From the NCBI GenBank assembly GCA_015061615.1, contig SUWE01000028.1:1-34692 (forward strand): a stretch of 34,692 nucleotides of DNA, read 5' to 3'. How positions within the stretch are numbered: the stretch's first letter is position 1; every line of letters starts with the position of its first letter. A program made the position numbers and the translations under genes. This DNA is from Lentisphaerota bacterium (GTDB taxonomy: Bacteria; Verrucomicrobiota; Lentisphaeria; Victivallales; Victivallaceae). Positions 11,015 through 34,692 of this stretch are shown piece by piece. Below the pieces are notes generated by a model. That model was given only the letters and a program-made list of their open reading frames with translations, ran no database searches and was not told the DNA's origin.

Positions 11015-11183
11015 CCAGAGGTAATTGCAAAAGTCAATAAAAAAAGATTGAAAAGATACCGTTGATGAGATTAAAAAGAGAGTTTAAGGCGGCTGCTGAA
11101 TAAGTAACCAGCCGGAAACGCTCCTTTTTCAGATCGCAACGGGAATTTTCAAGAATTTTTCAGAACTTTTGAAATTGCCTTTC
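11015..11183. mobile_element. Long-hairpin repeat, copy A (MITE-like), in operon leader
   Basis: This is one of three related ~170-base elements. The ends are inverted: GGTAATTGCAAAAGT at 11021-11035 against ACTTTTGAAATTGCC at 11065+100, i.e. 11165-11179, with 13 of 15 matching. Inner arms also pair: TTGAAAA (11048-11054) with TTTTCAA (11146-11152), CCGTTG (11059-11064) with CAACGG (11137-11142), GTTT (11082-11085) with AAAC (11116-11119), and GGCTGCT (11091-11097) with AGTAACC (11103-11109, one mismatch and one G-T). The outer ~60 and ~55 bases are nearly identical to copy B. It carries no ORF and no clear target duplication. It lies between the promoter at 11194-11222 and the DUF1796-like start, so it is transcribed. 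Confidence 0.75.
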
Positions 11184-11193
11184 CGATTTACTT

Positions 11194-11222
11194 AATATAG
11201 CACGAAACTGGAATTTTTTCAA
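11194..11222 (-). promoter_or_regulatory. Promoter of the O-acetylation operon
   Basis: Minus-strand TTGAAA (11222-11217), 17 bases, TATATT (11199-11194). The predicted start is near 11187, only a few bases before the hairpin repeat at 11183. The leader to the ATG at 10985 is about 200 bases, mostly repeat. Confidence 0.75.
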
Positions 11223-11239
11223 TCTTTGTTCACCGGATA

Positions 11240-13135
11240 TCAGAAACGCAGTGCATCTGAACGCAGTTTCATCACCGAACCGATATTTATCCTGCCTTCA
11301 CTGCGCGGCATATCTTCGCGGGCAACGAAGGCGGTCAAAGCGAACTCCGGCAGCTCGACCTGAACTCCGGAATTGAGCATTTTTATCACGATACACTCAA
11401 ATTTACGCGCCGGTTCACGCTCGATCATCTCCTGCACCATGCGGAGTTTCAAACGGTCATTGGCGGCGAAACACGCACCGTCGATGCGTTCTTCGATCTC
11501 CGAACAGTGACGGGCGACCGACTCCAGAACAGATGCGCTTTTAGTCCGCTGATTCAAATCCAGCTGCCACAGCTGCTGATGCACAGTCAGATCGGCATAG
11601 CGGCGTATCGGACTGGTGAAGTGAGCGTAAAAAGTCTTGCCGAGGGCAAAATGGATATCCCCTTTCACACTGTACGATGCGCGGGCAAAGGAACGCAGGA
11701 TCATTCCCAGAATCAGATTTTTTGCCGGGTCTTCGGGCAGAGAGGCGATAAATTCGCGACAGCATTTACGGTCGGCGATATCTCCGACATTGTAACCGAA
11801 AGCATCGTGCATCACTTCAGAAAATTCGACGGTCTTTTCCATTTCCGGCTCCGGATGCACCCGGTAGATGCCTGCAAGCTGTTTCTGCGGTAATTGCAGA
11901 CCGACAAACTGATTTGCCGCAAGCATACACTCCTCGACCAGCTGTTCGGATTCCCGTGAAATTTTGCGGTCGATACCGGTTACAGTGTTGCTCTTTTCGT
12001 CGCATATCACGCGCACTTCCGGCAGGGCAAGTTCGATAAATTCTTCGGTTTTTTCGCGGTAACTGCGCATTTTACGCACGACCTGAGCAAGCAGTTTCAA
12101 CGTTTCCGGAGTCTTATCCAGCCATCTGCCGCCGACGGTGCCGCGATCAAGAAATTCCTGAACTTCATCATAGTCAAGCCGTTGAGCAACTTTCACAAGA
12201 GTGTGTTCCCTCGTTCCGGATAAAACTCTGCCTTCGGAATCGACTTTAAGGAAAACGGAGTGCGCCAGGGAATCCTGATTTTCCTGCATACTGATTTTTG
12301 CCGTCAATCCGGCGGGGAGCATCGGCAGCGTTCTGCCCGGCAGATAACAGCTGAATCCGCGGAGTCCGGCAAGTTTGTCAAAACGCTCTTTGGGACGGAT
12401 ATACGCCGCAACATCAGCGATATGTATCCCGGCAGTATACGTTCCATCTCCATTATCTTCAATAGATAAGGCATCGTCAAAATCTTTGGCGTCAAAGGGG
12501 TCTATCGTCAGGATAAAGAGATCCCGGCGGTCACTGCGGGGGATTTTTGCAGGTACGATGGCGCGGGCGAGGTTCTCATCTTCTTCCGAGTATTTGCCCG
12601 GCAGTTCAAACTCCGCCATCACCGCATCCAGATCGGCGCTCAAAACTCCGGCTTCGCCGATAACTTCGCCGATTTTTCCGGTCAATTCGCCGTTTTCACT
12701 GCTTTCGCATTTTATACGCACCCAGTCGCCTCTTACTGCACCTTTGCGCGAACCGTAAATGGATACCACTTCCGGCAGACGTTTATTCAACGGCGCTACG
12801 AAGGAACCTTCAACAAGCTGACCGACAAAACTTTTGCGCTGACGGTCGAGTATCTCCACGACTTTGCCGACCGGACCGCGCTCACTGTCTTCCGGATGTC
12901 CCGGACGCGGCGGCAGAAGTTTCACTTTGACCGTGTCACCGTCAAGGGCAAATCCGGCAAATTTCGCAGGAACAAACACCTCATCTTTACCACTGCCGTC
13001 ATCAGGAACGACAAATCCGTACCCTCCGGCGGTCATGGAAATTTTTCCGGTGATACACTCCCCGTCACGCAGGGCTTTTCTTTTTGCGGTACGCTCCGCG
13101 ATACGGCGCAAACGGACTTTACGGCTCTTTTTCAT
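11240..13135 (-). CDS. rnr: Ribonuclease R / RNB-domain exoribonuclease
   Basis: This 631-residue 3'-5' exoribonuclease starts with a basic tail and cold-shock (OB) domains, including GGYGFVVPDDGSGKDEVFVPAKFAGFALDGD near 37-67. The RNB catalytic domain follows: IDPFDAKDFDDA at 211-222 supplies the magnesium-binding aspartates (Asp212, 218, 220, 221), and AHFTSPIRRYADLTVHQQL is the conserved late motif. The usual N-terminal helix-turn-helix is absent. The C-terminal S1-like domain is only about 50 residues and ends in DALRF, and no reading frame past the stop resumes it. The ATG overlaps the stop of the binding-protein gene by 4 bases, so translation is coupled. It is the last gene of a long operon. 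Confidence 0.92.
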   Translation of the reverse strand: MKKSRKVRLRRIAERTAKRKALRDGECITGKISMTAGGYGFVVPDDGSGKDEVFVPAKFAGFALDGDTVKVKLLPPRPGHPEDSERGPVGKVVEILDRQRKSFVGQLVEGSFVAPLNKRLPEVVSIYGSRKGAVRGDWVRIKCESSENGELTGKIGEVIGEAGVLSADLDAVMAEFELPGKYSEEDENLARAIVPAKIPRSDRRDLFILTIDPFDAKDFDDALSIEDNGDGTYTAGIHIADVAAYIRPKERFDKLAGLRGFSCYLPGRTLPMLPAGLTAKISMQENQDSLAHSVFLKVDSEGRVLSGTREHTLVKVAQRLDYDEVQEFLDRGTVGGRWLDKTPETLKLLAQVVRKMRSYREKTEEFIELALPEVRVICDEKSNTVTGIDRKISRESEQLVEECMLAANQFVGLQLPQKQLAGIYRVHPEPEMEKTVEFSEVMHDAFGYNVGDIADRKCCREFIASLPEDPAKNLILGMILRSFARASYSVKGDIHFALGKTFYAHFTSPIRRYADLTVHQQLWQLDLNQRTKSASVLESVARHCSEIEERIDGACFAANDRLKLRMVQEMIEREPARKFECIVIKMLNSGVQVELPEFALTAFVAREDMPRSEGRINIGSVMKLRSDALRF

Positions 13136-13890
13136 AATACGATCAATCCTGAATTTGCCATTTGAGTACGGTATTTATCCTTTTTCAGCTCTTTGAGCAA
13201 AAGCTGCAAACGCGCACTGTTTTCCTTATACGCAATGACGTAACGCACTGACAGCGGGTATTTTCCGGAAATTATATCCGCACTGGTCGGCAGAACTCCG
13301 CCGATCGGCAGACACTTCACTTCGACCGGAGCCTGCGGAATATACTGGGCAAAGAAGATCGAAGCGGTGTTTATAAAGGTGAAGCCGGAAGAAAATGAAT
13401 CCACTTTGAATATCTCCTCCGCCGCGGCATCGTTGCCGAAAATCCGCCGGACAAGGGTTCCGGAAGGGGAGAGCGGTTTCATCATTATCCGCTGGATATC
13501 AAGATTTATTCTGTTGTATTCCACCCAGCTCGGACGGGGGGAACGCAATATCTCACCGACCTGTTTTTTTGTCAATGCCGCCCCCGGATTGGCGGAACTC
13601 ACATAGAGTGCCAGCGCTTCACACGCCAGCGGAACAACATTTCTGTTGGCGGCAAAAACGGAGTCGATCACCACCGCATCGACGCTGCCTTTATCCAGCT
13701 CCGCAAGCGCCTTTGAGGGGTCCATACGTTTCATGGATACTTCAAGGTCACTTTGCAATGCCAGCGTTACCGATGCCCGGAACACCGCTTCAAGCGGCGC
13801 TCCGCCGGTGGCGTCGGCAAGGAGCAGTTCCGCCCCCTTCACCGGGAGCAGAAAGAGAAAAAGCACGCTGATTATCAGTAACTTATTCAT
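13132..13890 (-). CDS. PstS-like periplasmic substrate-binding protein
   Basis: The 252-residue protein has a signal peptide (residues 1-19, ending VKGA) and the reduced layout of phosphate-type binding proteins. It shows SVDAVVIDSVF, ALALYVSSANPGAALTKKQVGEILRSPRPSW and SPSGTLVRRIFG, matching the PstS pattern in which 'PLT..QL..IF.G...W' precedes an S-G-T anion loop. The binding residues are not conserved enough to name phosphate as ligand, and no ABC transporter genes are adjacent, so a sensing or orphan role is possible. Its ATG overlaps the hisC stop by 8 bases, and its own stop overlaps rnr by 4 bases. Confidence 0.78.
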   Translation of the reverse strand: MNKLLIISVLFLFLLPVKGAELLLADATGGAPLEAVFRASVTLALQSDLEVSMKRMDPSKALAELDKGSVDAVVIDSVFAANRNVVPLACEALALYVSSANPGAALTKKQVGEILRSPRPSWVEYNRINLDIQRIMMKPLSPSGTLVRRIFGNDAAAEEIFKVDSFSSGFTFINTASIFFAQYIPQAPVEVKCLPIGGVLPTSADIISGKYPLSVRYVIAYKENSARLQLLLKELKKDKYRTQMANSGLIVL

Positions 13891-14944
13891 TGCGGTAAAG
13901 GTTTTTCAAAAAGCGGATGAGATTGATATTCTGCGAACCGGAACCGACGGTTATGCGCAGATATTTTCCGGTGACTTCGCCGGGAAAATAGCGGACGATG
14001 ATATTCGCCTCACGCAGGGTCTTGAACAGACCTTCAGCATCGCCATCCGGCGGGGATACAAAGAGAAAATTCGCCTGACTGGGGATCACTTTGAATCCGA
14101 GAGCGATAAGCTCCCGGTTCAAAATCATGCGGGTCTTGATGATCTGGCGCACCCGTTTGCGGCGGTAGGTTTTATCCTCAAAATTCGCTTTGGCAAGGAC
14201 TTGTGAAATCCGGTTGACGTTGTATGAATCCTTGAGTTTCATCAGACCGGCGATCAGATTTTCGTTGCCGAAAGCATAGCCGACACGCAGACCAGCCATT
14301 GACGAACCTTTGGATAAAGTACGCATGACCAGCACGTTGTCGAACTTTTTGGCAAATTCGGCGCAGTTATCCGCCGCAAAATCGCTGTACGCTTCGTCGA
14401 TAAGCACGATGCCGTCAAATTCCCGGCAGACCTTTTCCACCAGCTCTTTGGGAGCGCAGTTCCCGGTCGGCGCATTGGGGCGGGTGATTATCAGCAAATT
14501 GGCATTTCCGGCAAGCTCCACGATATTTTCCGGATAGGAAAAATCCTCCTTGTCAAGGTCGATCTTTATCACCGGTGCGCCCTGAAGCGCCGCCAGCACC
14601 GGATAAAGCGAATAACTCGGCTCAAAGACCGCCACCGGCAGTTCATAAGAGGTGAATGCGCGGAAAATCATCGTCAGCAGATCATCGGAACCGTTGCCGA
14701 CGATCACATTGTCGCGTTTCATCTTGACGCTTTCAGAAAAAAGATCGCGCAGTTCATCCGCTGTCGGGTCGGGATAAAGCCGCAGATCGACATGCTTCAA
14801 CCGGGCAAGCACCTTGCGCACTTCCGGTGAAGGCGGATAGGGGTTTTCGTTGGTATTGAGCTTTATCAGCTTTGCGGCCTTCGGCTGTTCCCCCGGAACA
14901 TAACCGGCGATCGCATCAATTTCTTTACGGAAATAGGATTTCAT
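13883..14944 (-). CDS. hisC: Histidinol-phosphate aminotransferase
   Basis: This 353-residue PLP enzyme converts imidazole-acetol phosphate to L-histidinol phosphate. Fold-type I aminotransferase signatures are LNTNENPYPPSP near the start, IVGNGSDDLL (81-90), TRPNAPTGN (154-162), LIDEAYSDF (181-189, Asp183 to the pyridine nitrogen) and TLSKGSSMAGLRVGYAF (209-225), in which Lys212 forms the Schiff base. Those match HisC rather than other class I/II enzymes, but broader specificity is possible because no other his genes are nearby. I chose the ATG at 14944 over 15040 since AAGGAG precedes it. That ATG shares its A with the upstream TGA stop (TGATG), a coupled arrangement. Confidence 0.92.
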   Translation of the reverse strand: MKSYFRKEIDAIAGYVPGEQPKAAKLIKLNTNENPYPPSPEVRKVLARLKHVDLRLYPDPTADELRDLFSESVKMKRDNVIVGNGSDDLLTMIFRAFTSYELPVAVFEPSYSLYPVLAALQGAPVIKIDLDKEDFSYPENIVELAGNANLLIITRPNAPTGNCAPKELVEKVCREFDGIVLIDEAYSDFAADNCAEFAKKFDNVLVMRTLSKGSSMAGLRVGYAFGNENLIAGLMKLKDSYNVNRISQVLAKANFEDKTYRRKRVRQIIKTRMILNRELIALGFKVIPSQANFLFVSPPDGDAEGLFKTLREANIIVRYFPGEVTGKYLRITVGSGSQNINLIRFLKNLYRNE

Positions 14945-15477
14945 CAAAAAACACTCCTTATCAATGTATATAAAGCAGTTACAGCGCCCAGCACTCCGCA
15001 GGCGGCAACAGAATATTTCCATGCAGACGATACCGCGCATTTGCGGAAAATATCACGCAAAGTACACGGTTTGGCGGCGAGCCAGATACCGGCGATGCCG
15101 CAAAGCAGCATAATGACCGTGACTGCCCCCGCTCCGGCAACGCGGAAATCAAACGCATAGTGAACGATATCATAACCTGCCAATATAAGAAGAAATGCAA
15201 CTCCTCTGGCAGCATAATGATCCAGATGCCGGAAACTCAACACCGGCAGCACCACCGCCAGCGGATAGAGCCACGGCACGACCGCTTCCGGAGTGACCGG
15301 AACTGCCAGCGGCACGCAAAGCAGCGCACACGGCAGACAAAGGAGCAATCCGGCGATGCGGTTCCTGCAAAGTTTTTCAAGTTTGTTTACCGTCGCAGGA
15401 GCGGCTTTCAAGGCACAGACTGCAAGCGCCGCCAGTACGAGTGCCAATACGAGCATTTCAATTTTCAAAATCCACAT
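14944..15477 (-). CDS. Small polytopic membrane protein of unknown function
   Basis: The 177-residue protein is almost wholly hydrophobic, with about six membrane segments: residues 5-25, 37-53, 56-76, 85-104, 107-128 and 145-170. I recognise no family. The start at 15477 places a membrane segment immediately after the Met and lies 14 bases past the tatD-like stop; the in-frame ATG at 15582 would run into that gene. The ribosome site is weak (GATGGAC). Its stop overlaps the hisC ATG by one base. Position between the tatD-like gene and hisC offers no clear role. Confidence 0.72.
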   Translation of the reverse strand: MWILKIEMLVLALVLAALAVCALKAAPATVNKLEKLCRNRIAGLLLCLPCALLCVPLAVPVTPEAVVPWLYPLAVVLPVLSFRHLDHYAARGVAFLLILAGYDIVHYAFDFRVAGAGAVTVIMLLCGIAGIWLAAKPCTLRDIFRKCAVSSAWKYSVAACGVLGAVTALYTLIRSVF

Positions 15478-15490
15478 AACACACTGTCCA

Positions 15491-16309
15491 TCAAAGGTTG
15501 ATACCGTAAAATCTTCTGCCGTTGGCGGAAAATATTTCCGCCGCTTTTTCCGGGAGCATCTGCCGCTGGGCGCCGAGAGCAAGCGCCACCAGCGGAACCA
15601 TTCCCGGCGTGTTGCTTCTGCCGCGGTAGGGAACCGGTGCCAGATAAGGGGAATCGGTTTCGATCAATATCCGCTCATCCGGAACAACTGCGATCGCTTC
15701 GCGGATGTTCGACGCCGCCTTGAAAGTGTACATTCCCGTAACACCGAAATATCCGCCCAGAGCAAGGAATTTTTCCGCATCGGCGGCGTTGCCCGCGTAG
15801 CAGTGGATAACGAATCTGCCCCCTGCCCCGGCAAAGGGTCCAAGCATTGCAAGAGCATCATCGTACACTTTACGGCAGTTGTCTTTGTCGCGCAAATGGA
15901 GCATTGCCGGCAGATTCCACTCCAATGCAAGCTGTAAAAACTCCTCAAGAACGGTTTTCTGACTTGCCTCATCGGAAAAGTCGTAAAAGTAATCCAAGCC
16001 GATCTCACCGACGGCAGCCAGTTTTTCATGATTCCGGAAAATGGAAAAATCCGGCTTTTCCCCCGCGAGGTACTCCGTTGCCGCATGGGGATGGATCCCG
16101 CAGGAAAAGTAAACATTTTCCGCATATCCGGCAAACTCCATTGCCCGCACCGATTCAGCGCAGTTGCTTCCGGCGCAGAGCATGAGCAGCCTGTCAACCG
16201 GGACGGCAAAATCCTTTGATGCCAGTTGAAGATCATTCCGGCATCTGCTCAGAAAATCTTCAAATGTATCCTCTGCGGACAGATGGAAGTGGGTATCGAA
16301 AATTTCCAT
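15491..16309 (-). CDS. TatD family metal-dependent hydrolase (DNase-like)
   Basis: This 272-residue TIM-barrel protein shows the TatD signature set: DTHFHLS (His7, His9), GEIGLDYFYDFS (Glu102), MLHLRDKD (His138), VIHCYAGN (His169) and IETDSPYLAP (Asp219). These coordinate two divalent metals. TatD proteins are 3'-5' exonucleases or DNases, with a proposed role in DNA repair and D-aminoacyl-tRNA deacylation for some members. Length is typical (about 260). AAGGTG precedes the ATG. It begins 2 bases after the LptF/G-like stop. Confidence 0.93.
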   Translation of the reverse strand: MEIFDTHFHLSAEDTFEDFLSRCRNDLQLASKDFAVPVDRLLMLCAGSNCAESVRAMEFAGYAENVYFSCGIHPHAATEYLAGEKPDFSIFRNHEKLAAVGEIGLDYFYDFSDEASQKTVLEEFLQLALEWNLPAMLHLRDKDNCRKVYDDALAMLGPFAGAGGRFVIHCYAGNAADAEKFLALGGYFGVTGMYTFKAASNIREAIAVVPDERILIETDSPYLAPVPYRGRSNTPGMVPLVALALGAQRQMLPEKAAEIFSANGRRFYGINL

Positions 16310-16311
16310 TA

Positions 16312-17655: not shown

Positions 17656-17670
17656 TATTCAAAACTTTCT

Positions 17671-19128: not shown

Positions 19129-19162
19129 TTTCAAATTCCTCTTTTTCTGATTAAACTGCTAT

Positions 19163-19191: not shown

Positions 19192-19208
19192 GGGAGTTAT
19201 TCAAGTTT

Positions 19209-20796: not shown

Positions 20797-20872
20797 GTCT
20801 CCATCGTCTAGAGGCCTAGGACACCGGGTTCTCATCCCGGCAACATGGGTTCGAATCCCATTGGAGATGCCA
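20797..20872 (+). tRNA. tRNA-Glu (anticodon CTC)
   Basis: This 76-base tRNA folds into a cloverleaf. The acceptor is GTCTCCA with TGGAGAT (G-T at the first pair), the D-arm contains GTCTAGAGGCCTAGGAC, and the anticodon stem CCGGG/CCCGG holds the loop TTCTCAT with anticodon CTC. The T-arm ATGGG/CCCAT has loop TTCGAAT, followed by discriminator G and an encoded CCA. It decodes GAG. T-runs follow at 20873-20880 and 20884-20890. Its 3' end is repeated at 21094-21104. Confidence 0.97.
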
Positions 20873-20900
20873 TTTTTTTTGCCTTTTTTTACCTAATCAT

Positions 20901-21018
20901 CCAGAGAGTAATTCCTGCAAAAAGCAAGCAATGACTTTGGAAAATAAATTTTCCTCCGTCATTGCTTTTACTTTTTGCTTTGATATTTTTTGCACTGCAA
21001 AAAATGGAATTACTCTCT
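20901..21018. repeat. Long hairpin E1 next to the tRNA
   Basis: This segment forms a nested imperfect hairpin of about 118 bases. AGAGAGTAATTCC (20903-20915) pairs perfectly with GGAATTACTCTCT (21006-21018). AGCAATGAC (20927-20935) pairs with GTCATTGCT (20958-20966), and GGAAAAT (20939-20945) with ATTTTCC (20948-20954). Its left end, CCAGAGAGTAATT..GCAAAAAG, resembles the ends of the ~170-base hairpin repeats (CCAGAGGTAATTGCAAAAG). It has no coding potential. Confidence 0.7.
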
Positions 21019-21093: not shown

Positions 21094-21104
21094 TGGAGAT
21101 GCCA
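21094..21104 (+). repeat. Second copy of the tRNA-Glu 3' end
   Basis: TGGAGATGCCA repeats the last 11 bases of tRNA-Glu (20862-20872) and is again followed by T-runs and an AATCAT. The copies are 232 bases apart. It could mark a tandem duplication, or the far end of an insertion at the tRNA. Confidence 0.65.
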
Positions 21105-21130
21105 GTTTTTTACCTTTTTTTTCCAATCAT

Positions 21131-21249
21131 CAGTAAGCAATCCCCGCAAAAAGCAACTCCTGACTTTGGCAAATTTTGATTTGCCCCGTCTGGAGTTTTT
21201 ATTTTTGCTTTTATCATTTTTTGCTTACAAAAAAATGGGATTGCTCACT
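21131..21249. repeat. Long hairpin E2, structural paralogue of E1
   Basis: Outer arms are AGTAAGCAATCCC (21132-21144) with GGGATTGCTCACT (21237-21249), one mismatch. Middle arms are AACTCCTGAC (21155-21164) with GTCTGGAGTT (21188-21197), one mismatch. Inner arms are GGCAAAT (21168-21174) with ATTTGCC (21179-21185). Arm lengths and loop positions match E1, but the paired bases differ in both strands together. Confidence 0.7.
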
Positions 21250-21509
21250 TTTGTATGGGTTGCCCTGCGTTTCTCGCCCTGCGGTCTGCGATACTCGCGC
21301 ATAATTCGCGCAGGTGCTGCGCTTTTGATGTATCTGCGGCACACCAAATCTGTCAGACAAGTCAGACAAGTGCCGCATTCTGACGACAGCGCGCCACAGC
21401 GGGTATCTGAAGCCCGCGTTACCCGTAAGCCGTTGATCATGAAGTACATCAATGTCAATGACGGAACAATACTGCTTGATTGCGGATTTGCTTCAGATTT
21501 CAATTTGAA
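21250..21509. other. Gap between hairpin E2 and hairpin repeat B
   Basis: A GC-rich module (CCTGCGTTTCTCGCCC) lies at 21260-21290, followed by CGCGCATAATTCGCGC. A short direct repeat, TCAGACAAGTCAGACAAG, is at about 21352-21369. A possible 34-codon ORF starts at 21439. No recognised gene is present. Confidence 0.4.
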
Positions 21510-21543
21510 AGAGGCAATTTCAAAAGTTCTCAAAAACTCTTGA
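21439..21543 (+). CDS. Possible 34-residue ORF or gene remnant
   Basis: The peptide begins MKYINVNDGTILLDCGF and runs into hairpin repeat B, which supplies its last residues and stop. It has no ribosome site upstream. It may be the leftover start of a gene interrupted by the repeat, or chance. Confidence 0.2.
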   Translation: MKYINVNDGTILLDCGFASDFNLKEAISKVLKNS

Positions 21544-21679
21544 AAATTCCCGTTGCGATCTGAAACTGGGGCGTTTTCGGGCGTTACCGCTTTGGGTAGC
21601 GCCCTCAAACTACCAGCTTTCATCTCCTCAACGGTCTCTTTTCAATCTTTTTTTGATTGACTTTTGCAATTACCTCTGG
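21510..21679. mobile_element. Long-hairpin repeat, copy B
   Basis: This 170-base element is inverted relative to copy A. Ends are AGAGGCAATTTCAAAAGTTC at 21510-21529 and, as reverse complement, CCAGAGGTAATTGCAAAAG at 21661-21679. The outer arms are almost identical to A. The central stem differs: GGGCG-T-TACC (21579-21588) against GGTA-G-CGCCC (21595-21604), replacing the A and C versions by paired changes. No ORF and no clear target duplication are seen. Confidence 0.78.
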
Positions 21680-21690
21680 AAAAGTAATAA

Positions 21691-21732
21691 AATGCCTGAG
21701 CAATAACTGAAAATGCCTCGGCAATGCAACTG
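21691..21732. repeat. Short imperfect tandem repeat at the 3' end of the AAA gene
   Basis: AATGCCTGAGCAATAACTG (21691-21709) is followed by AATGCCTCGGCAATGCAACTG (21712 on), two related ~20-base units just past the stop at 21738. They could be a weak terminator region, although no strong hairpin with T-run is seen. Confidence 0.4.
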
Positions 21733-21737
21733 TTTTT

Positions 21738-23291
21738 TCAGACTTGCTCAAATATCCAGCGGTCGATCTGTCCGGCAGCGTTATCGAAGTTGACTCCGAT
21801 CAGAATGATCTTTTTGCCGCTGTTCATATAACGGCGGAAATAGTCCCGCTCCCTGATCTGCTGTAACGCGATCTCATCACTTTTATTCAACTTGAATTCA
21901 AAGACAAACACAAAATCTTCATTGGTCGCCACCGCATCTATTCTTCCGTTATTGGTACGGGATTCGGCAGTGATACTGATGCCCAGCAGCATGAATATCG
22001 AATAGAAAAGCAACTGGAAATTGCTCTCATTTTTCAAATGCACATCATACGGAACTTTGGCGAAAAAAACCTTCATCGTCTCCATGAATCCGTCAACGTC
22101 TCCGGCGGTCACCTTATCTGCCAGACGGTAGACGGAATCTTTCACCTGATCGACGTGCAGTCCGCTGCAATCCCCGGTCAGATAAGCCTCAAATGAGCCT
22201 TTGACTTCCAGATTTGGGAAACGAAGCATATAAGCCGTATCTCCATAACGTTCAACGGCTTTGTCGATCGTAAGATATCCGGTCTGCAAAAGCAGTGTCA
22301 GGGGATTGAGTTTATCGACTTCATAGGCATCAAAGGCGAAAGAGGAGACCGGATTCGACAGAACATCTTCAAAACTGAAGTGATTTTTGCGGATAAGCTC
22401 CAGCAGAAATGAGGGGGTGCCGGTGGAAAACCAGTAGTTGTTGAATTTTCCGCCGGATTCAAGAAACTTGGCAAAAGATACCGGATTGTAAACCGTTTTG
22501 GCTTTTTCCTCAAAGCGGTAACCGTTGTACCACTCTTTGATTTTGGCTTTGAAATCATTTATATCACGCGAACCTGCAACAGCTTCGATACGGTCGCCGA
22601 AGTTAGCTTCCAACTCCTCCTGCGTGTAGCCGAACATGGTAGCATACCGGGCATCCATCGTGATATCGGTAAGGTTGTTCAAGTCAGAAAAGAGCGAAAC
22701 GTGGCTGAATTTACTCACTCCTGTGACAAAGAGGAAACGCTCCTTGTCATTGCGGTCTTTCAGCACGCTGTAAAATCCTTTGAGACACTTCTGGATATTG
22801 GCGATTTCCGGATTGGAAATATTGTCAAGAATCGGTTTATCGTACTCATCGACCAAAATGACCACCTTATTTTTCCTGGCAAGCTGATCGATCAGATCAC
22901 CGAAACAGAGTGCGGGAGTCGAACCGGAAACCTCTATACCGTATTCTGCGGCGATTCTTTTAACTTTTGCCGTCAGGTAATCCGGCAGTTCCTTCATTGC
23001 ATCAGAAATAACATTGTAATCGCCGAAACTCAGGTGGATGACCGGATGCACTTTCCATTCATACGGTTTATCGTAAATGGCAAGACCTTTGAAAAGTTCT
23101 TTTTTGCCCTCAAAGACCGCCTTCAAAGTGGATACAGTCAAAGATTTACCAAAGCGGCGCGGACGGGACAGAAAATAGGACTCCCCGGCGGGATTTATCA
23201 AATTCCAGATATACTCCGTCTTATCGACATAGAGATATCCTTCCTGCCGTAATTTTTCAAAATTGTAAACGCTACTGGTAATATCTTTCAT
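21738..23291 (-). CDS. AAA-ATPase-like / PD-(D/E)XK (DUF1703-type) protein
   Basis: This 517-residue protein has the AAA-ATPase_like N-terminal domain and a C-terminal DUF1703-type PD-(D/E)XK nuclease-fold domain. The N-terminus has YLYVDKTEYIWNLI and a Walker A variant SRPRRFGKSL (42-51). Walker B is VILVDEYDKPI (144-154). The late part has NGRID (Asp452) and EFK (Glu465-Lys467), the catalytic pattern of the nuclease fold. Such proteins are abundant in Bacteroidetes and PVC genomes; their function is unknown, though defence or mobile-element roles are suspected. The start at 23291 follows AGGAG by 9 bases; the in-frame ATG at 23342 would lie in the -35. It has its own promoter and is isolated between repeats. 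Confidence 0.88.
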   Translation of the reverse strand: MKDITSSVYNFEKLRQEGYLYVDKTEYIWNLINPAGESYFLSRPRRFGKSLTVSTLKAVFEGKKELFKGLAIYDKPYEWKVHPVIHLSFGDYNVISDAMKELPDYLTAKVKRIAAEYGIEVSGSTPALCFGDLIDQLARKNKVVILVDEYDKPILDNISNPEIANIQKCLKGFYSVLKDRNDKERFLFVTGVSKFSHVSLFSDLNNLTDITMDARYATMFGYTQEELEANFGDRIEAVAGSRDINDFKAKIKEWYNGYRFEEKAKTVYNPVSFAKFLESGGKFNNYWFSTGTPSFLLELIRKNHFSFEDVLSNPVSSFAFDAYEVDKLNPLTLLLQTGYLTIDKAVERYGDTAYMLRFPNLEVKGSFEAYLTGDCSGLHVDQVKDSVYRLADKVTAGDVDGFMETMKVFFAKVPYDVHLKNESNFQLLFYSIFMLLGISITAESRTNNGRIDAVATNEDFVFVFEFKLNKSDEIALQQIRERDYFRRYMNSGKKIILIGVNFDNAAGQIDRWIFEQV

Positions 23292-23342: not shown

Positions 23343-23487
23343 TTATCTGTTTTGCAAAAATAGAAAATATGTGTGATTTTATGCTGGAATATCTGTCGCA
23401 ACCAGTTGCAAAGTTAACGTAAACAGATCAACTTGCCAGCGGCATCAGTACTTTAAATTCTGAGAAAATGTTGAAAAAATATAAGAT
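23343..23487. other. Gene-free spacer upstream of the AAA promoter
   Basis: AT-rich sequence with no gene seen. TTGAAAAAATATAAGAT precedes the AGAGGCAATTTCAAA repeat end at 23488 but is too closely spaced to be a promoter. Confidence 0.4.
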
Positions 23488-23650
23488 AGAGGCAATTTCA
23501 AAGAATCAAATCAATGCCGAATTTTTCAGCATATTTTTTATATGCGGGTTGCGCTCGCTTTGCTCGCGCTCTGCGGCGCACCCCCCGCCTGCCCGCAAGC
23601 CGCGCGGTTTAACGCTTTGCCCGACCGGGAATAACGGTTGTTTCAACTTT
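23488..23650. repeat. Hairpin-repeat end plus GC-rich module (fragment D)
   Basis: AGAGGCAATTTCAAA at 23488-23502 matches one end of copies B and C. It is followed by a hairpin GCATAT-TTTTT-ATATGC (23529-23545) and a GC-rich module starting GGGTTGCGCTCGC that resembles the module after hairpin E2. No matching second arm was found, so this looks like a fragment or composite. The GC-rich hairpins may also serve as terminator for the gene ending at 23655. Confidence 0.45.
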
Positions 23651-23654
23651 TGAT

Positions 23655-24230
23655 TCAATCGGTTATTTTTACCAGAATCACCTGATCAATAAAAACCCCA
23701 TCCTGCTTTTGAGATCCCGGCACATAAGCCGGTCCGGTAAATTTCAAAGAGACATACACCGTGTATTTATTTCCCGCATCAGCTTTATAAACCTTGGAGA
23801 GATCTGCCTGCATCTGCCACCACCACATCAGCAAAGAGGTTCTGCCCGGCAGAAATTCATAATCCCAGAGTTTATACCAGTGAAACTTCTCATCCTGCGG
23901 GAACTCCCGGATGGTGAAAGACGGTCCCTGTTTTTTCGCCGTCCAGTTATAAATGCTTACTGTTGACGAGTACATTGCACCGCGCGGCTTTTTGTCAATA
24001 CCGTGCTGCCACTTTTCATTCGGTGCAGGCGCGGCAAGGGATTTGCCGGTTTCGGAATCGGCATCTTCCCGGACAAATTTTGCGGAATTATTCAGCCGCA
24101 ATCTTTCCGAACCGAATTTGACAACTTTATTTTCCGGTACATCTTTCAGGAACTCCGGGGTCGAATTTTCTGCGGCAGCAGAGAAAACTGCTCCGGCAAA
24201 CAGTATTACGGTCAGTAAAAACTTTTTCAT
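23655..24230 (-). CDS. Secreted protein of unknown function (operon end)
   Basis: The 191-residue protein has a clear signal peptide (MKKFLLTVILFAGAVFSAAA, cleavage about 20) and a beta-rich remainder with many aromatics (YNWTAKKQG, FHWYKLWDYEF, LLMWWWQMQADLS). The later pattern YTVYVSLKFTGPAYVP and DGVFIDQVILVKI resembles galactose-binding-like carbohydrate-binding modules, but that is inference. It is the last gene of the eight-gene minus operon, 33 bases after the oxidoreductase gene. No lipobox or membrane segment beyond the signal is seen. Confidence 0.75.
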   Translation of the reverse strand: MKKFLLTVILFAGAVFSAAAENSTPEFLKDVPENKVVKFGSERLRLNNSAKFVREDADSETGKSLAAPAPNEKWQHGIDKKPRGAMYSSTVSIYNWTAKKQGPSFTIREFPQDEKFHWYKLWDYEFLPGRTSLLMWWWQMQADLSKVYKADAGNKYTVYVSLKFTGPAYVPGSQKQDGVFIDQVILVKITD

Positions 24231-25352: not shown

Positions 25353-25383
25353 AATATTTTTCCTGATAAGTTTATGTTTTTTA

Positions 25384-26598: not shown

Positions 26599-26623
26599 TT
26601 TTTTCTCCTGTACGTAAAAATAT

Positions 26624-27880: not shown

Positions 27881-27893
27881 AACAAACCTTCAT

Positions 27894-28979: not shown

Positions 28980-28997
28980 GACAGATATTTCCTCTGT

Positions 28998-31900
28998 TTA
29001 TTGAAGATCAACGCTTTTTTCTGCTGTCAAACCCGTTGTGAAATTCTGTAAGCGGAAACGGTATTTGCCGCAAAGTGCATTGAAAGGAAAGGTGAATGAC
29101 AGTTTGCTTTCTTTATGAACTTTCAGAACTTTTGCAAGCGTGGTCAATTCTTTACCGCCGGGGTCGAAGACCCGCAGTACGGCAAATTGTCCGGCAGGTA
29201 TGGAGGTCAACGGTATTTCGATCTTCTCCCCCCGCTGTGCTGTTTCCGGCAATGCCAATACAACTGCAGGCTGTTTTTCTGCGAATACGGCAAAGAGTCT
29301 CAAGGGAGTACCGCCGGGTTCAATGGTGACGGATTTTTTCATTTCTTCACTTGTCAAACCCTTGCCGCACTCATAAATGTACGCTTTTTCCGGCAGAGTG
29401 ACGGTAACCGGTTTGCCGGATTCTTCCGGAATAACGCCGATAAGCTCATAACCGCTGCCTTTGCGGATACGCAAAGTTGCTTCGCAAGTTACGGTGTGAG
29501 ATATATCCACTCCGGCAGATTTCAGCATACCGCTGACGAAAGCATCAAAAGGAGTTGCTTTTGAAGCACTGGTTTCGATCACGGAAAAACTGAAATTCAT
29601 CAGTACAGCTTTACCTTTGCCGAACTTTTTCTGCACCATGTAAGGTCCATCGGGATTTATCAATGCAACAGAGGCTTTCATAAGCGGCGCCGACAGGGGT
29701 TTCACCTGATTTGCCGGTTGATTTTTCAACAGGATATCTCCGAAAAGTTCTGCAAGCGGATTGCGGGTTTGCTTTTTGAGATTTTCGTTGAAAACGCCGG
29801 GGTAAAGGTCCGCGATCACAGTACCGCCGTTTCTCACGAAGTCAACGATCGCGGCACTTTCTTTATCGCTGATTGAGGATATTCCGCAGAGAAAGAGTAT
29901 CTTCATATCTTTCAGGCGGTCAAGTGTCCGGGCAGTGACAAATTCAAAATTGACTCCGTTGCGATAGGAGTAACGCAGCAGCGGAGCGATCGAAGTTTCC
30001 GGATTGGAACAGCGCGGGTCAGCTTTGGGAGCCCGTTTTGAATTGTGATTCCAGAAAATTCCCGCGCCCTGCGGGGCAAGCGGCGTATGGATGAGCTGTT
30101 GAGCCGTACCGAAGCGGAGACGGCGGAATTCATCCATATATTTTTTTGCGTAGGAGTCGGTATAATCTATTGCCAGTATGCCATGCGGAAAATCGTCAGA
30201 AAGGGCATACCACGCATTGCCGTTGACGACACCTTTGAGCAGGGCATCCAGTAATGTATGCGGATAGGTCACACTTCTTTCTTTGTGATAACCGATCCAG
30301 ATAAAACGGGGACGGTCAGGGTAGAGACTGCGGATAAGTTCATCTTCCAGCAAATTGGAGTACGGCCCCCACCAGTCAAGTTTATCCATCATCAATTCAA
30401 TATTGTGATTGCCGAAAGTACCTTCCAGACCGACTTTTGCGTTGGGATCGAGTTTGCGTATCTCTGCGGCGCAGAAATGGTGGATATCGGCAAACATCTT
30501 TTCCATATACTCATAGTGGTCGTTCCACTCCGGAGCGTTGTTTTCCTTTTCCGTGACGGCAAGCGGGCGGTGGGGAACAGCATCGAAATCAGAATATGAA
30601 CTGCCCCACTGGGCATTGAGTTTGCCGACAGTACCGTATTTCTGTTTCAGACAGTTGCGGAATGATTTCAAATCCGATGCCCCGAATCCGGCAGAAAGGG
30701 TGTTGCCGTTTTCATCCCCCAGGGAATAGAGCAGTGGTGAGAAACGGGGAAGTCCTTTCATGCGGCAGTGGACATAATCTTTCCAGATCTGCTGAACTTC
30801 AGGACGGTAAAAGTTGTGGTCACCGCCGAGTTTTGCCAGAGCCTTCATCCCTTCCGGATAAAAGAGCTTGCTGAAGTTGACTTCGCCGTTTTTACCTTTG
30901 AGGATGCGTATTCTGGTCAGATACGACACCAGACGCTGATTGAGCAGGGTGTATTGCCGGGCGTTATCCAGAGATACCTTATAGTGCGAAAGCGCCGCAT
31001 TGAATCCCAGATCATCCCCCGACCTTGCCGCCATCAGCGGGTCCGCCGGACCGCCCCACGAGAACTGCACATACCCATCTTCAGGATAAGGAACGGGAAA
31101 AATCAACTCTTTTTCGGTATATCCGGTCTTATTTCCGGCAGGGGAGTAAAGTTCCGCCTGCAGATATCCGGCGGCATCGGGCATGAAAAACTCCTTTATT
31201 TCAAAGCTGACGGAGTTTTTTCCGGCGGGTATTTCAATTATCTTTCTTTTCCAGATACGGTTATGGGGAAAGTCGGCAAGCGACAAAACTGCCTTGACCG
31301 GTTCCGTGAAGGTTTTGCCGGTGACGAGCGTACCTTTGACCGGCTTTCTGGGAAGAATGGTATCGGCAGCGACATTCAATGTGAGCTTCCGTTCCGGGAT
31401 ATCTGAAGTGAACTCTGCGGTGCTGAAACTCTTTCCGGGCAGAAGCAGATCGAAAAAGTAAGTGCCGTTGGGCAGTTCCGGAAGTGTGAAAACCGGGGAT
31501 TTCACCTTTCCCTGCGCAAGAATATTGTTGTATTCATCTCTCAAACGGTACTCCAAATCATCCGTATTTTCCGGTAAGATGATGGTATTGCCCTTTTTGA
31601 CCGCTTTAAGCGGCACAGAGTCGCCCTTTATCACCCAGTCCAATGCCCGGAGCAGAGTCATCTGGGCATTTTCATACCGTGCCGCCCAGCGGCGGTCGGG
31701 GAAGATCGGGGGCAGCATCCCCGCACGGGAGTACCTGACGGTACAGATTTTACCTTTTTCAAACTGATACGCGCGCACTACTGTTCCGGGATGAATGGAT
31801 TCAGCAGCAAAAGCAGGAGCTGCAAGCGGTTTTGCCAGCGGTTTGGAGTAAGGCATTGCAGTGTTGACAAGCAGCAGACCGGTTCCGGTTCTCACCTGCT

Positions 31901-32306
31901 GCAACAGCTGGAACTGTACATCCGGCGGCAGTTTGTCAAAAGGAACATTGACCAGCATGACGGCATCATATTTCTGCTGTATCTTTTCTCTGATCTCAGC
32001 ATTTTTTTCGTAAGTTCCGGTTCCGGAAAGGGCGGCATCGTAAACCCCGTCGTGAGCGATCTTCTGACCGTTGTAAGTGACAAAGACAGTTTCCTGTGCC
32101 GGATAACGCTGAAGCAGTTCAGCAACGTGTCGTCCCTCGATTCTGGGAAAAATCAGCAGAAGTTTTACAGGGGAAAAATTTTTCGCCCAGACAAGGTGTT
32201 CCGTCCGGTAATTCCGGGTCAGGGTATTCACATACCAGCCGTCATGTTTTGCAACGAGATTTCCTGCACAAAACAGCAGGAGCAACATCAGATATATTTT
32301 TTTCAT
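28998..32306 (-). CDS. Secreted GH42-like beta-galactosidase-type glycosidase
   Basis: The 1102-residue protein starts with a signal peptide (about 1-19). Residues 44-180 look like a GATase1-like sensor fold (YDAVMLVNVPFDKLPPDV), followed by beta-sandwich segments to about 400. A glycosidase barrel (about 410-740) includes FSWGGPADPL, LYSLGDENGNT (acidic candidate Glu532), LNAQWGSSYSDFDAV, GLEGTFG (Glu628) and GNAWYALSDDFPHG. After that a GATase1-like trimerisation domain follows, FLCGISSISDKESAAIVDFVRNGGTVIADL, and a C-terminal beta domain. This resembles GH42-type enzymes common in Lentisphaerota. Catalytic residues are not assigned with certainty. Its ATG overlaps the CBM9-like stop by 4 bases. 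Confidence 0.82.
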   Translation of the reverse strand: MKKIYLMLLLLFCAGNLVAKHDGWYVNTLTRNYRTEHLVWAKNFSPVKLLLIFPRIEGRHVAELLQRYPAQETVFVTYNGQKIAHDGVYDAALSGTGTYEKNAEIREKIQQKYDAVMLVNVPFDKLPPDVQFQLLQQVRTGTGLLLVNTAMPYSKPLAKPLAAPAFAAESIHPGTVVRAYQFEKGKICTVRYSRAGMLPPIFPDRRWAARYENAQMTLLRALDWVIKGDSVPLKAVKKGNTIILPENTDDLEYRLRDEYNNILAQGKVKSPVFTLPELPNGTYFFDLLLPGKSFSTAEFTSDIPERKLTLNVAADTILPRKPVKGTLVTGKTFTEPVKAVLSLADFPHNRIWKRKIIEIPAGKNSVSFEIKEFFMPDAAGYLQAELYSPAGNKTGYTEKELIFPVPYPEDGYVQFSWGGPADPLMAARSGDDLGFNAALSHYKVSLDNARQYTLLNQRLVSYLTRIRILKGKNGEVNFSKLFYPEGMKALAKLGGDHNFYRPEVQQIWKDYVHCRMKGLPRFSPLLYSLGDENGNTLSAGFGASDLKSFRNCLKQKYGTVGKLNAQWGSSYSDFDAVPHRPLAVTEKENNAPEWNDHYEYMEKMFADIHHFCAAEIRKLDPNAKVGLEGTFGNHNIELMMDKLDWWGPYSNLLEDELIRSLYPDRPRFIWIGYHKERSVTYPHTLLDALLKGVVNGNAWYALSDDFPHGILAIDYTDSYAKKYMDEFRRLRFGTAQQLIHTPLAPQGAGIFWNHNSKRAPKADPRCSNPETSIAPLLRYSYRNGVNFEFVTARTLDRLKDMKILFLCGISSISDKESAAIVDFVRNGGTVIADLYPGVFNENLKKQTRNPLAELFGDILLKNQPANQVKPLSAPLMKASVALINPDGPYMVQKKFGKGKAVLMNFSFSVIETSASKATPFDAFVSGMLKSAGVDISHTVTCEATLRIRKGSGYELIGVIPEESGKPVTVTLPEKAYIYECGKGLTSEEMKKSVTIEPGGTPLRLFAVFAEKQPAVVLALPETAQRGEKIEIPLTSIPAGQFAVLRVFDPGGKELTTLAKVLKVHKESKLSFTFPFNALCGKYRFRLQNFTTGLTAEKSVDLQ

Positions 32307-33352
32307 TTTGCCTTGTCTCCTTCGGGCAGATTAAAATGCAAATCCAGTAAATATTCCCATTTCAGTTTGAAAAGTTTCTCTTTTGCCGTGTTCAAAAGCT
32401 GATAGGCGGTCAGCGACACATCTCCGTGCAATTTTTCACAGTTCCCGACGGTTTCACGGCATGCTTCGGGGATTTCTCCGCGGTGCAGACGTTTGATATC
32501 TTCCAGCAGTGCGGAATATTCCATCCATGCTTCTTTCACAACCTTTTCCATCGGTTCGATCCGGGTTCCTGTTTCAGAAAAACGGATCAGCTCTTTTCCG
32601 GCAGGCAGTATGCAGGGAATCAGCACTTTTCCTTGCAGGATTTCAGCAGTTTTCTGCGGAGTTACCGGAGTTTTTCCGCAAAAAAAGAGATAACCGAACT
32701 TCTCCGTCACCCGCGAATCAGCTCCGGCGGCAGAGGCGGCTCCGGTAAAACGCTCTTTCCAGGCGTAACGGGCATGGAGAAATTGCCAGAGATCGCCGGG
32801 AACGGCTTTTTGGCCCAGATCTTCCCATGAAAAAAACAATTCCAGTACCCACTGTTTTTTTTCTATGGATGCCGAAGTCTGCCAGTTGAGTCCGTTCCAG
32901 TCCCAGAGGTATACGACCGTATCCAATCTTTTGCGGTCAGCTTTGACTCCGGCGGGGTTGACGGTGAAAACGGTGTGTCCGATACCGTTGGCATCCGGAT
33001 CAAAGTACAATTCGGCACAATCGTCGCGCCAGAGGTCGACGTTGTCATCTTCCTGAAAATTTTTACGGAGCAGTTCCATCTGATCGTCATGATTCACTAT
33101 CCCGACATAAAGTCCGTTGTCATGGTAAACTGCCCGGAACTCTGTCTTCAACGGACTCCGGGGCGGGTTGGGTTTGCCGTACTGCCAGTAGCGGGAAAGA
33201 ACTTCTGCCTTTTTCCAGCACGGCTCATCAAGTTTGCCGTCAAGCACAGGAGGAGCATCTGCCGGAGTGACCTTGTAAAATGCGACCTCTCTGACTCCTG
33301 CCGTGCTTCTGAGAAAAAACAGGCATAATATCAACTGAATAATCTTTCGCAT
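32303..33352 (-). CDS. Secreted CBM9-like carbohydrate-binding protein
   Basis: The 349-residue protein has a signal peptide (about 1-19) and an N-terminal CBM9-like domain (about 30-215): PPVLDGKLDEPCW at 34-46 is the family start pattern, followed by FRAVYHDNGLYVGI, DDNVDLWRDDCAELYFD and HTVFTVNPAG. The C-terminal part (about 230-345) is helical and unidentified. CBM9-like modules bind reducing ends of sugars. It lies immediately upstream of the glycosidase with a 4-base overlap, so the two are probably made together and act on one glycan outside the cytoplasm. Confidence 0.88.
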   Translation of the reverse strand: MRKIIQLILCLFFLRSTAGVREVAFYKVTPADAPPVLDGKLDEPCWKKAEVLSRYWQYGKPNPPRSPLKTEFRAVYHDNGLYVGIVNHDDQMELLRKNFQEDDNVDLWRDDCAELYFDPDANGIGHTVFTVNPAGVKADRKRLDTVVYLWDWNGLNWQTSASIEKKQWVLELFFSWEDLGQKAVPGDLWQFLHARYAWKERFTGAASAAGADSRVTEKFGYLFFCGKTPVTPQKTAEILQGKVLIPCILPAGKELIRFSETGTRIEPMEKVVKEAWMEYSALLEDIKRLHRGEIPEACRETVGNCEKLHGDVSLTAYQLLNTAKEKLFKLKWEYLLDLHFNLPEGDKAK

Positions 33353-33367
33353 GGAATCACCGTAAAA

Positions 33368-34168
33368 TCAGAAATTACCAAAGGTGTTTTTGGTATCCTT
33401 GAAATTATCGCTCCACTGCCAGGTACGCAATCTGGAATTCAGACCATCGCCGTCGTTGTTCAATTCCGCCCAGTGCTGGGCATTGACGACCTGAGCCATG
33501 CCCAGATTTTCAACACTGCCGTCGGCATGACCGAAATTTGCTCTTTCACTGTGCCGGAAAGCGATCGGCTGTTTCCCTGAACTGCTTGCCGGATTGAATG
33601 TGCTGGCAGTTGTTGCTCCGCTGCTGAGCAATCCGTTATTATAATTTTCACCCAAAAGGATATTTACCGACGGACGGCGCAGTCTGACACGTTTTTTGAT
33701 ATTATTGATCTTGTCGGGAAAAGTGATATATTTGTTTGAACCGTAAGAAGTATACGCATGGCAGAGGTATGCTTCATCATCCATCGCGGGACAGCGGAAA
33801 ACTCCGGTACTGTCTGTATTTCCGCTCTGTCTCCATTTATTGGAATTGGAAGGATTGGTCATTTTGGATATCTGGTAAAGAGATGCCACACAATCCAGAT
33901 AGTAGGTTTGATTGACAGTTTCCGACGGGGCGCAACCGGTGTAATATCCGTTGGGAAAGAAATCATCATTGTCATCGGCATAATTGTGGAACACCATGGA
34001 AAGTTGTTTCAAGTTGTTTACACAGCTGATCATTCTGCCGCGCTCTCTTGCCGAATTGAGTGCCGGCAGCAGTATCGCGGCAAGAATGGCGATAATTGCG
34101 ATAACTACCAGCAGTTCAATCAGCGTGAATCCGGCAATGTTTGTAAAAAGGCGTGTTGTTTTTCTCAT
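33368..34168 (-). CDS. Pseudopilin-like protein with H-X9-DG C-terminal motif
   Basis: The 266-residue protein starts with a type IV pilin-like prepilin leader: [25 protein letters not shown], where Gly13/Phe14 is the prepilin peptidase site and Glu18 the +5 glutamate. Its C-terminal part has the H-X9-DG motif ([12 protein letters not shown]), the mark of a family massively expanded in PVC bacteria (Planctomycetes and Lentisphaerota), function unknown. The start at 34168 is chosen because AAGGAG lies upstream. It is the promoter-proximal gene of the eight-gene operon, only 15 bases ahead of the CBM9-like gene, so it is probably made with the saccharide proteins. Confidence 0.95.
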
Positions 34169-34222
34169 GATTTTTTCTCCTTGACTTTGAAAAAAGCTGA
34201 TCCGGTTAACTTGTTTTACCAT

Positions 34223-34251
34223 AATATACACGGGGATAATAAAAATAAAAT
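34223..34251 (-). promoter_or_regulatory. Candidate promoter of the prepilin-headed operon
   Basis: Minus-strand TATATT (34228-34223) preceded by only a weak AT-rich -35 (ATTTTA, 34251-34246) after 17 bases. The predicted leader is about 50 bases. The weak -35 would fit control by an activator, which is inferred. Confidence 0.5.
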
Positions 34252-34528
34252 GGATAAAAACGACATTATTAATGACAAAAAGACGGTTTGATGCGCACAG
34301 TAACATCCCTGTCGGACAAAGCAGGCACACACAGATTTGTTATAGAGATGTACTCTTTGTTTACGAAGATAATGCGGCAGAAAACCGATATTGCATCATG
34401 CAATTCCAACGGGAACGGATAATTTATTCAACATGGATAATTCCGGCATAAAGATGACATAAAACGTACTGCGGAACAAAAAGGCATGAAAAAATCATAA
34501 AAAAGTGTTTCCCACCGGCAAAATCAAC
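34252..34528. other. Gene-free stretch upstream of the prepilin-like gene
   Basis: No ORF of note is present on either strand. The stretch is AT-rich and may contain regulatory sites for the operon; I see nothing definite. Confidence 0.4.
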
Positions 34529-34557
34529 TTGAAAACCGGAAATTCCGGGATAATATT
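34529..34557 (+). promoter_or_regulatory. Candidate rightward promoter before hairpin repeat C
   Basis: TTGAAA (34529-34534), 17 bases, AATATT (34552-34557). A 13-base palindrome CCGGAAATTCCGG (34536-34548) fills the spacer. The predicted start is near 34564, beside the repeat end at 34566. Confidence 0.45.
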
Positions 34558-34565
34558 ATATCAGA

Positions 34566-34692
34566 AGAGGCAATTTCAAAACTGATTCAAAAAGAGATTG
34601 AAAAATCAGCGTTGATGAGATCAAAGCGGTAGTTTGAGCGTGGCTATTGAATAAATAACCACCGAAAACGCTCCGCTTTGAGATCGCAGCGA
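34566..34692. mobile_element. Long-hairpin repeat, copy C (cut by window edge)
   Basis: AGAGGCAATTTCAAA at its left end, then GTTGATGAGAT as in copy A, in the same orientation. The central stem is GTGGCTATT (34640-34648) with AATAACCAC (34654-34662), and AAAGCGG (34623-34629) pairs with CCGCTTT (34673-34679). Those stems are absent as sequence in A and B but occupy the same place. The distal arm lies beyond the window. Confidence 0.7.

Follow-up and report, generated by a model that had tools for sequence, protein, structure and literature searches.

Introduction

Known palindromic repeats that resemble miniature inverted-repeat transposable elements (MITEs) include ERIC, YPAL and NEMIS. In the sections of two articles on which we draw (PMC2229807, PMC2267715), ERIC (IRU, RU-1) is described as a MITE-like imperfect palindrome of 127 bp that occurs across genera and forms a single long stem-loop, and YPAL (RU-2) as a mobile Yersinia palindrome of ~168 bp that is abundant between genes and has a predicted stem-loop fold. 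The first of these, a 2007 review, presents NEMIS transcripts in the same sections as proposed RNase III substrates, and names RUP as the sole bacterial repeat with ends like those of an insertion sequence (IS) (PMC2229807). Here we analyse a 34,692-nucleotide stretch of Lentisphaerota DNA (hereafter the window), which is one entire contig (C53) of a 2.7-Mb metagenome-assembled genome (MAG) and carries three copies of a hairpin repeat. These repeats are probably non-autonomous, MITE-like transposons of ~165 bp, moved in trans by a DDE enzyme and with a folded plus strand under selection. By analogy, the element would work like ERIC, YPAL/RU-2 and NEMIS. What is new is the strength of the covariation, a strand-polar fold that bears a motif, ends that change around one core, a Y-shaped element with GGG ends and an IS5-family partner.

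REP/REPIN sequences, which go with the Y1 enzyme RAYT, are non-autonomous palindromes that are recognised as folded single strands and are not known to duplicate their target. We know of no apical motif in Correia/NEMIS elements that is conserved in a comparable way. The parts of the literature used here give 20–40 bp for REP units; the element described below is ~165 bp long and flanked by duplications, and Y1 transposases (PF01797) were found at E 0.001 in three of eight element-rich genomes, its own genome not among them. The closest likeness, on the sections cited above, is to YPAL/RU-2, which is also a small mobile palindrome of near-equal length (PMC2229807, PMC2267715). However, YPAL duplications measure 3–26 bp and its inverted repeats are internal, whereas the duplications here are mostly 4–5 nt and the inverted repeats reach the ends (PMC2229807). 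YPAL is known from Yersinia and Erwinia, and is set apart here by description rather than by sequence alignment. The 127 bp and TA termini of ERIC are not seen (33 of 50 copies in the element's own genome are 165–166 bp long, and these copies end in GAG..CTC), and the hosts of ERIC are enterobacteria and Vibrio rather than Lentisphaeria (PMC2229807). Correia/NEMIS elements of Neisseria are likewise small mobile hairpins bounded by terminal inverted repeats (PMC2229807), but these are 24 bp long in elements of 106–158 bp (PMC2229807, PMC2267715). Like pneumococcal RUP and other IS-derived MITEs, GGG-ended relatives of the element have ends in common with an IS, and like RUP (PMC2229807) the family lands in IS genes, as two of its copies do; RUP, in contrast, goes with IS630 and TA targets rather than with an IS5-family IS and a 4-bp duplication. 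The interior is also different, being a separate structured core and not visibly a deletion form of the IS. The text seen of a 2024 MITE review (PMC10969869) contains none of the terms Lentisphaer-, Victivallis or compensatory. Within the open-licence literature we found no description of the family, which does not establish its absence from print.

Results

Three copies of a long hairpin in the window

Copy A occupies positions 11018–11181 on the plus strand (164 bp; 137.3 bits with structure model R2) and folds over its full length between GAGGTAATTGCAAAA and TTTTGAAATTGCCTT. Copy B (21511–21676, minus strand, 166 bp, 156.6 bits) is inverted relative to A and C. The contig, at 34692 bases, ends inside copy C, and this copy is therefore incomplete, with its first 126 bp present (34567–34692, plus strand, 104.2 bits, cut at the 3ʹ end). 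Copies A and B each fold better than all 200 of their dinucleotide shuffles (z -6.5 and -7.9, respectively). The usual apical motif, a tandem G.A together with a C.A mismatch, is present in copy B (21574–21609, minus strand; TTTGAGGGCGCTACC..GGTAACGCCCGAAAA). In copy A (11083–11118, plus strand; TTTAAGG..GTAACCAGCCGGAAA) AA/GG replaces the usual GA/GA and the C opposite A is kept; the motif of copy C lies at 34633–34668 on the plus strand (TTTGAGCGTGGCTATT..ATAACCACCGAAAA).

An earlier note on this DNA, made from the letters alone, had picked out the three repeats, and the structural details that it gave are confirmed: apical stems TGCT/AGTA (A), TACC/GGTA (B) and TATT/AATA (C), each beside a C opposite A; next arms AAAAAG/CTTTTT, CTGG/CCAG and AAAGCGG/CCGCTTT; and an internal loop of GAGAT opposite AGATCGCA. 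Its suggestion that bases change in pairs between copies was borne out on a larger set of sequences, as described below. At gathering score, the Rfam covariance models matched one tRNA in the whole window and none of the copies; in the copy A region (10980–11220) they gave no match at E up to 5.

Paired changes and strand polarity

The 148 full-length places yielded 125 distinct sequences, which were thinned to 51 representatives below 90% identity. Most of 46 relatives' copies that were folded form one full-length hairpin, mostly of 161–167 nt. Two structure models were built, R1 (an RNAalifold structure of 45 pairs) and R2 (65 pairs), and covariation was scored on an alignment of 48 rows (A3). 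In this alignment both partners of a pair differ in 505 cells, whereas column shuffles give 199 +/- 13 such cells and sliding the partners gives no more than 207; 78.5% of cells are paired vs 63.9%. With parsimony states on a FastTree phylogeny, 77 branch events are compensatory, altering both partners without loss of pairing, compared with 6.4 +/- 2.6 in 500 column re-pairings (maximum 15) and no more than 14 for slid columns. At least one such event falls in 39 of the 65 pairs and at least two in 21. Arms that diverge independently, which the earlier note had named as grounds for abandoning its proposal, were not seen in the 48 rows.

At the apex, conservation extends beyond pairing. Of the 48 rows, 44 have TTTGA, which faces CCGAAAA or a similar sequence and so gives the tandem G.A, and the apical C.A mismatch is kept in 43. 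Mismatches are also strand-polar. When the arms of the 51 representatives are aligned in a strand-symmetric way, G.A outnumbers T.C by 369 to 29, A.A outnumbers T.T by 110 to 25 and G.G outnumbers C.C by 46 to 19; G.A exceeds T.C in 50 sequences, and the reverse holds in one. The polarity extends beyond the apex (G.A/T.C 277/26, A.A/T.T 105/25, G.G/C.C 40/13, G.T/A.C 198/120); there, when sequences are grouped by like start letters, G.A is the commoner of the two in 13 of the 14 groups and ties with T.C in the other. Since the opposite strand would carry pyrimidine mismatches, the plus strand of the element, as RNA or single-stranded DNA (ssDNA), looks to be under selection as a folded strand. 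Together, the conserved mismatches and the strand polarity argue against decay or pure palindrome correction. In one genome (G096), copies of ~201–204 bp (L275–L277) appear to have duplicated the apical hairpin.

A dispersed family with defined ends

With copy A as query, BLAST gave at least 44 matches in its own genome, the best 40 of 155 first-look candidates being scored. The 15-base end pattern GAGSYAATTKCAAAA has 137 exact occurrences there and its reversed control none, and GAGSYAATTKCAAAR, with one mismatch allowed, has 188 against 3 for its control; the exact end matches show that the family is not due to chance. The copies have the features of MITEs: they are short, lack a long open reading frame (ORF), have terminal inverted repeats and are many and dispersed. 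Among the 50 copies with both ends defined, lengths other than 165–166 bp are 43, 44, 51, 85, 122–124, 131, 142, 163, 186, 199–200 and 636 bp; the short forms keep both ends and lose the inner hairpin. Remnants with a single end, of either kind, also occur.

Some copies are themselves interrupted. In some of them the apical tandem-G.A site holds a REP-like palindrome of 33–35 bp (CTTGTCCCGCCGTAGC..GCGAAGGCGGA type), which lies on the left arm in the own genome (G000 C40:24484, C50:12265, C74:5984, C46:50521 and C85:7490), on the mirror-image right arm in G013 (L271–L274), and twice within one G014 copy (L235). Element ends in the own genome can also contain or adjoin a further repeat, of GGGGCTGAGCGCAAAACCTG.. 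type (C44, C49, C52:34673, C68:26341 and C8:62971).

Target duplications and insertions

Fifty copies in the own genome were tested for flanking direct duplications, representing 36 of 45 places plus 14 length variants; the nine places without two defined ends, which include window copies A and C, were left out. Duplications of at least 3 nt flank 24 of the 50 copies, against a mean of 2.4 and a maximum of 9 in 5000 trials with re-dealt right flanks, and those of at least 4 nt flank 21 (mean 1.0, maximum 5). Across all genomes sampled, exact duplications of 4 nt or longer flank 77 of 164 distinct full copies (re-dealt mean 3.1, maximum 9 in 300 trials), and 104 when boundary shifts of 2 nt are allowed (mean 22.8, maximum 36). 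The exact duplications include 48 of 4 nt and 22 of 5 nt. Duplications of 6 nt, read by eye, occur in lineages with GACG/GGCGG ends (G098, G046 and G032). The target duplications point to transposition.

Two copies have landed in or beside transposase genes. On contig C32 a copy interrupts a PF01609 transposase gene, and the alignment to the C8 copy of that gene (93% over 393 bp) stops exactly before base 1 of the element; the right side of this insertion was not found among the stretches examined, and the empty site is thus one-sided. A second copy adjoins a truncated PF01609 frame in G014 (L235). No element was found at the RNB-gene orthologue loci, corresponding to copy A, of 17 of the 33 relatives with matches; 16 of these loci were read at least 1.1 kb beyond the estimated stop and one only 166 bases beyond it, the loci of 16 other genus members being left out. 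No two-sided empty site emerged from 106 spanning matches, which among those inspected were largely tandem element copies. In the case of two copies in G014, the matches in three relatives were confined to the block that separates the copies, with no clean empty site.

Tandem arrays of two or more copies were observed in G046 (L278–L281) and G033 (L089). In L280, ACTTCA stands before, between and after two copies that look identical, and in L278 and L281 the spacer agrees with the right flank; tandem spacers in G021 and G033 (AAAG and AA) differ from the flanking duplication.

Changing ends and a candidate IS5-family partner

Ends of the GGG type (GGGYAYYTCWAAAAATTC, one mismatch allowed) were matched in 47 of 148 relatives, at 30–63 places each in G030, G058, G075, G114 and G132. 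The ~165-bp core bears these ends in G132, G058, G030 and G092: R2 matches two G132 copies outside its model set at E 3e-15 and 6e-15, and a GGG-ended member in G114 (L356) at 5.8e-5. GGG ends also bound an almost fully paired element of 276–310 bp, Y-shaped with a basal stem and two hairpins, in G075, G080, G083 and G089 (L323–L325, L328 in G080, L330, L339 and L341). Six of these from G075, G083 and G089 fold at -120 to -149 kcal/mol, and they too show paired changes (CAGCCC/GGGCTG vs CATACC/GGTATG). R2 gave no match to the Y-shaped loci up to E 1, except a weak one of 0.29 in L318; hence, their kinship with the core rests on the ends.

The GGG-ended lineage was the only one to yield a partner transposon. 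PF01609 matched at 30 places in six of nine GGG-type genomes, and all 30 loci were checked for ends. One of them, L349 in G080, lies in a transposon of 1287 bp that is bounded by GGGTTCCTCTAATAATT and GGGAACCTCTAAAAATT and has a TTAA duplication and an open frame of 348 codons for an IS5-family transposase (NF033581, 288.7 bits against a cut-off of 140; PF01609 and PF05598 also above cut-off). The first 17 bases of the ~279-bp G080 element agree with those of this IS at 17 positions for the right end and 14 for the left, and the corresponding figures for the 165-bp core element of G058 are 16 and 15. An intact PF01609 gene in G114 (L344) has no GGG ends. As for an autonomous element with the GAGG ends of the window's lineage, end pairs 400–4000 bp apart in 238 loci gave three cases; one is the 636-bp nested copy, and in the translated frames of the other two, on which no family search was run, we recognised no transposase.

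Distribution among relatives

Under stricter filters, and on the best matches per genome, R1 finds the family at E <=0.001 in 34 of 100 genomes, including its own: 20 of the 34 genomes of the genus, 5 more from the same family (f1) and 9 from another family of the order (f4). In named genomes the apical pattern marks at least 117 stretches among the matches listed, all in Lentisphaeria, Lentisphaerae or Victivallaceae MAGs apart from one "uncultured bacterium"; because the pattern was built from Lentisphaeria copies and 117 is a lower bound, the presence of the family in other phyla is not excluded. Many of these Lentisphaeria come from animal guts. Viral contigs gave no match to the apical pattern.

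Other features of the window

A 15-mer element end, GAGGCAATTTCAAAG, stands alone at 23489–23503 on the plus strand, a feature absent from the earlier note's list. It is likely to be a remnant of the element, and the surrounding 23460–23720 folds unremarkably (z -1.4). Copy B sits in a duplicated locus (21400–21850) beside an AAA-ATPase/PDDEXK_9 gene. What seemed an empty site for this copy is the paralogous locus on contig C33 (L059:1700–2330), where the same insertion survives as a remnant of ~31 bp, the rest of the element having apparently been deleted at a TGAAAAT microhomology. Imperfect direct repeats of 29 and 44 nt (20862–20945 and 21094–21174) lie downstream of a tRNA-Glu gene; tRNA prediction gave one tRNA in the window.

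Discussion

How might such an element spread? Terminal inverted repeats, dispersed copies, duplications of 4–5 nt, insertions at transposase genes and the lack of copy A at orthologous places in relatives together amount to MITE-like transposition, in which a DDE transposase would act in trans on the element ends. In GGG-ended lineages the enzyme would be of the IS5 family, where an IS with such ends exists. For the GAGG-ended lineage of the window, in which no transposase was found with the ends, we infer a related enzyme that has gone undetected or been lost. Comparison shows that not the ends alone but the whole element is kept, as one imperfect hairpin of near-fixed length with its apical motif and plus-strand polarity of mismatches, and the folded plus strand, as ssDNA or RNA, may be recognised by a factor that favours the spread of the element. 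Such recognition could account for arms that change in concert in lineages whose ends are not alike. The earlier note had offered a choice between selection on a hairpin and a mobile hairpin copied by a structure-aware enzyme. The covariation, mismatches, polarity and target duplications favour a selected hairpin that is also mobile. The special copying enzyme, however, may not be needed: GGG-ended relatives share their ends with an ordinary IS5-family transposon, and a standard transposase acting on those ends would suffice for movement.

Several observations weigh against this account. The structure was derived from the sequences on which it was tested, which favours it in the cell test and less so in the tree test, and the copies look mosaic, so that the tree is approximate; the covariation figures are therefore strong rather than exact. 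The excess of G.U over A.C is weak (223/176; 30 sequences against 15), and several relatives' copies are short (L087, L088, L094 and L105) or have a weak or different fold (L091, L093 and L098). No exact 4-nt duplication flanks 87 of the 164 copies, and in the window the duplication score of copy B is 0 and no duplication is visible at copy A. As for the enzyme, GAGG ends match IS ends at 5–9 of 17 bases (8–9 for the G080 IS, 5–6 for the G098 IS). PF01609 gave seven matches in four of five genomes, with none between GAGG ends at the six of seven loci checked. IS5 protein was found in one of 30 genomes, chosen mostly for other end types; this genome, G098, has 163-bp elements whose ends agree with those of its IS at best at 5 and 3 of 17 bases.

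A different origin for the paired changes is that these are ordinary palindromic MITEs whose arms are kept complementary by template switching within the hairpin (quasi-palindrome correction), with no selection. The mosaic look of the copies is consistent with this, and the symmetric inner deletions (the 51, 85 and 122–124 bp forms) suggest that recombination or slips in replication involve the hairpin. Correction should erase mismatches, yet ~90% of the 48 divergent rows have TTTGA with its GA-type right side, and the C.A mismatch, in the same position. Moreover, G.A is commoner than T.C in 50 of the 51 sequences and, outside the apex, in 13 of the 14 start-letter groups. We therefore regard correction without selection as unlikely.

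It is also rather improbable that the element moves as a folded single strand, through an HUH enzyme, a recombinase or reverse-transcribed RNA, with no DDE enzyme. A full-length hairpin that joins both ends, the plus-strand polarity, the conserved non-Watson-Crick motif and the lack of a DDE partner in the window's lineage would all fit such a route. However, regular target duplications of 4–6 nt and the agreement of GGG-lineage ends with an IS5-family transposon do not, and Y1 transposases reach E 0.001 in only three of eight element-rich genomes, reverse transcriptases not having been searched for.

A host-beneficial regulatory RNA, spread by transposition and kept for its effect on neighbouring genes as a terminator, RNase III site or mRNA-stability site, has precedents in ERIC and NEMIS in the sections cited of PMC2229807. 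The setting of the copies would suit it. With ORFs called by length, 17 of 128 copies with enough flank overlap an ORF by >40 nt and 111 do not, and the median distance is 60.5 nt for the 102 neighbouring 3ʹ ends and 97 nt for the 120 neighbouring 5ʹ ends. However, neighbouring genes show no preferred orientation (38/35/25/25 among 123 copies with both neighbours), presence is patchy (34 of 100 genomes) and copies are inserted into or beside transposase frames. A terminator role was rejected, there being no excess of convergent genes among the 123 copies, and the pattern is also unlike that of a regulator that acts on genes in a strand-specific manner. We give little credence to maintenance for host benefit. 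Finally, although some contigs break inside copies (C53 itself among them) and many pattern matches in named genomes are no more than 100 bases from the start of a contig, neither misassembly nor a chance set of inverted repeats without common origin is a credible explanation, given 137 exact end matches against 0 in the control and the same architecture across many MAGs.

A transposon with a selected folded strand remains our preferred explanation, and it admits a bolder, tentative extension, in which the conserved core is the selfish unit. The hairpin of the plus strand, whether RNA or ssDNA, would together with its apical motif (tandem G.A / C.A) be carried by at least three end sets (GAGG.., GACG/GGCGG.. 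and GGG..CTCTAAAAATT), and perhaps by as many kinds of transposase, in two families of the order. Its mobility or control would then depend on recognition of the folded strand by a factor beyond end binding. If this is true, the duplicated-apex forms in G096 and the Y-shaped elements of 276–310 bp would be further designs.

The usual view of bacterial MITEs is that they are remnants left by deletion, with the hairpin as a by-product of inverted ends. The family described here keeps a full-length fold of near-fixed length, with heavy compensatory change, conserved non-Watson-Crick motifs and strand polarity, across genera and two families while its ends change. With it, the GGG-ended branch gains an IS5-family candidate enzyme, and the selection of palindromes as folded strands becomes directly testable.

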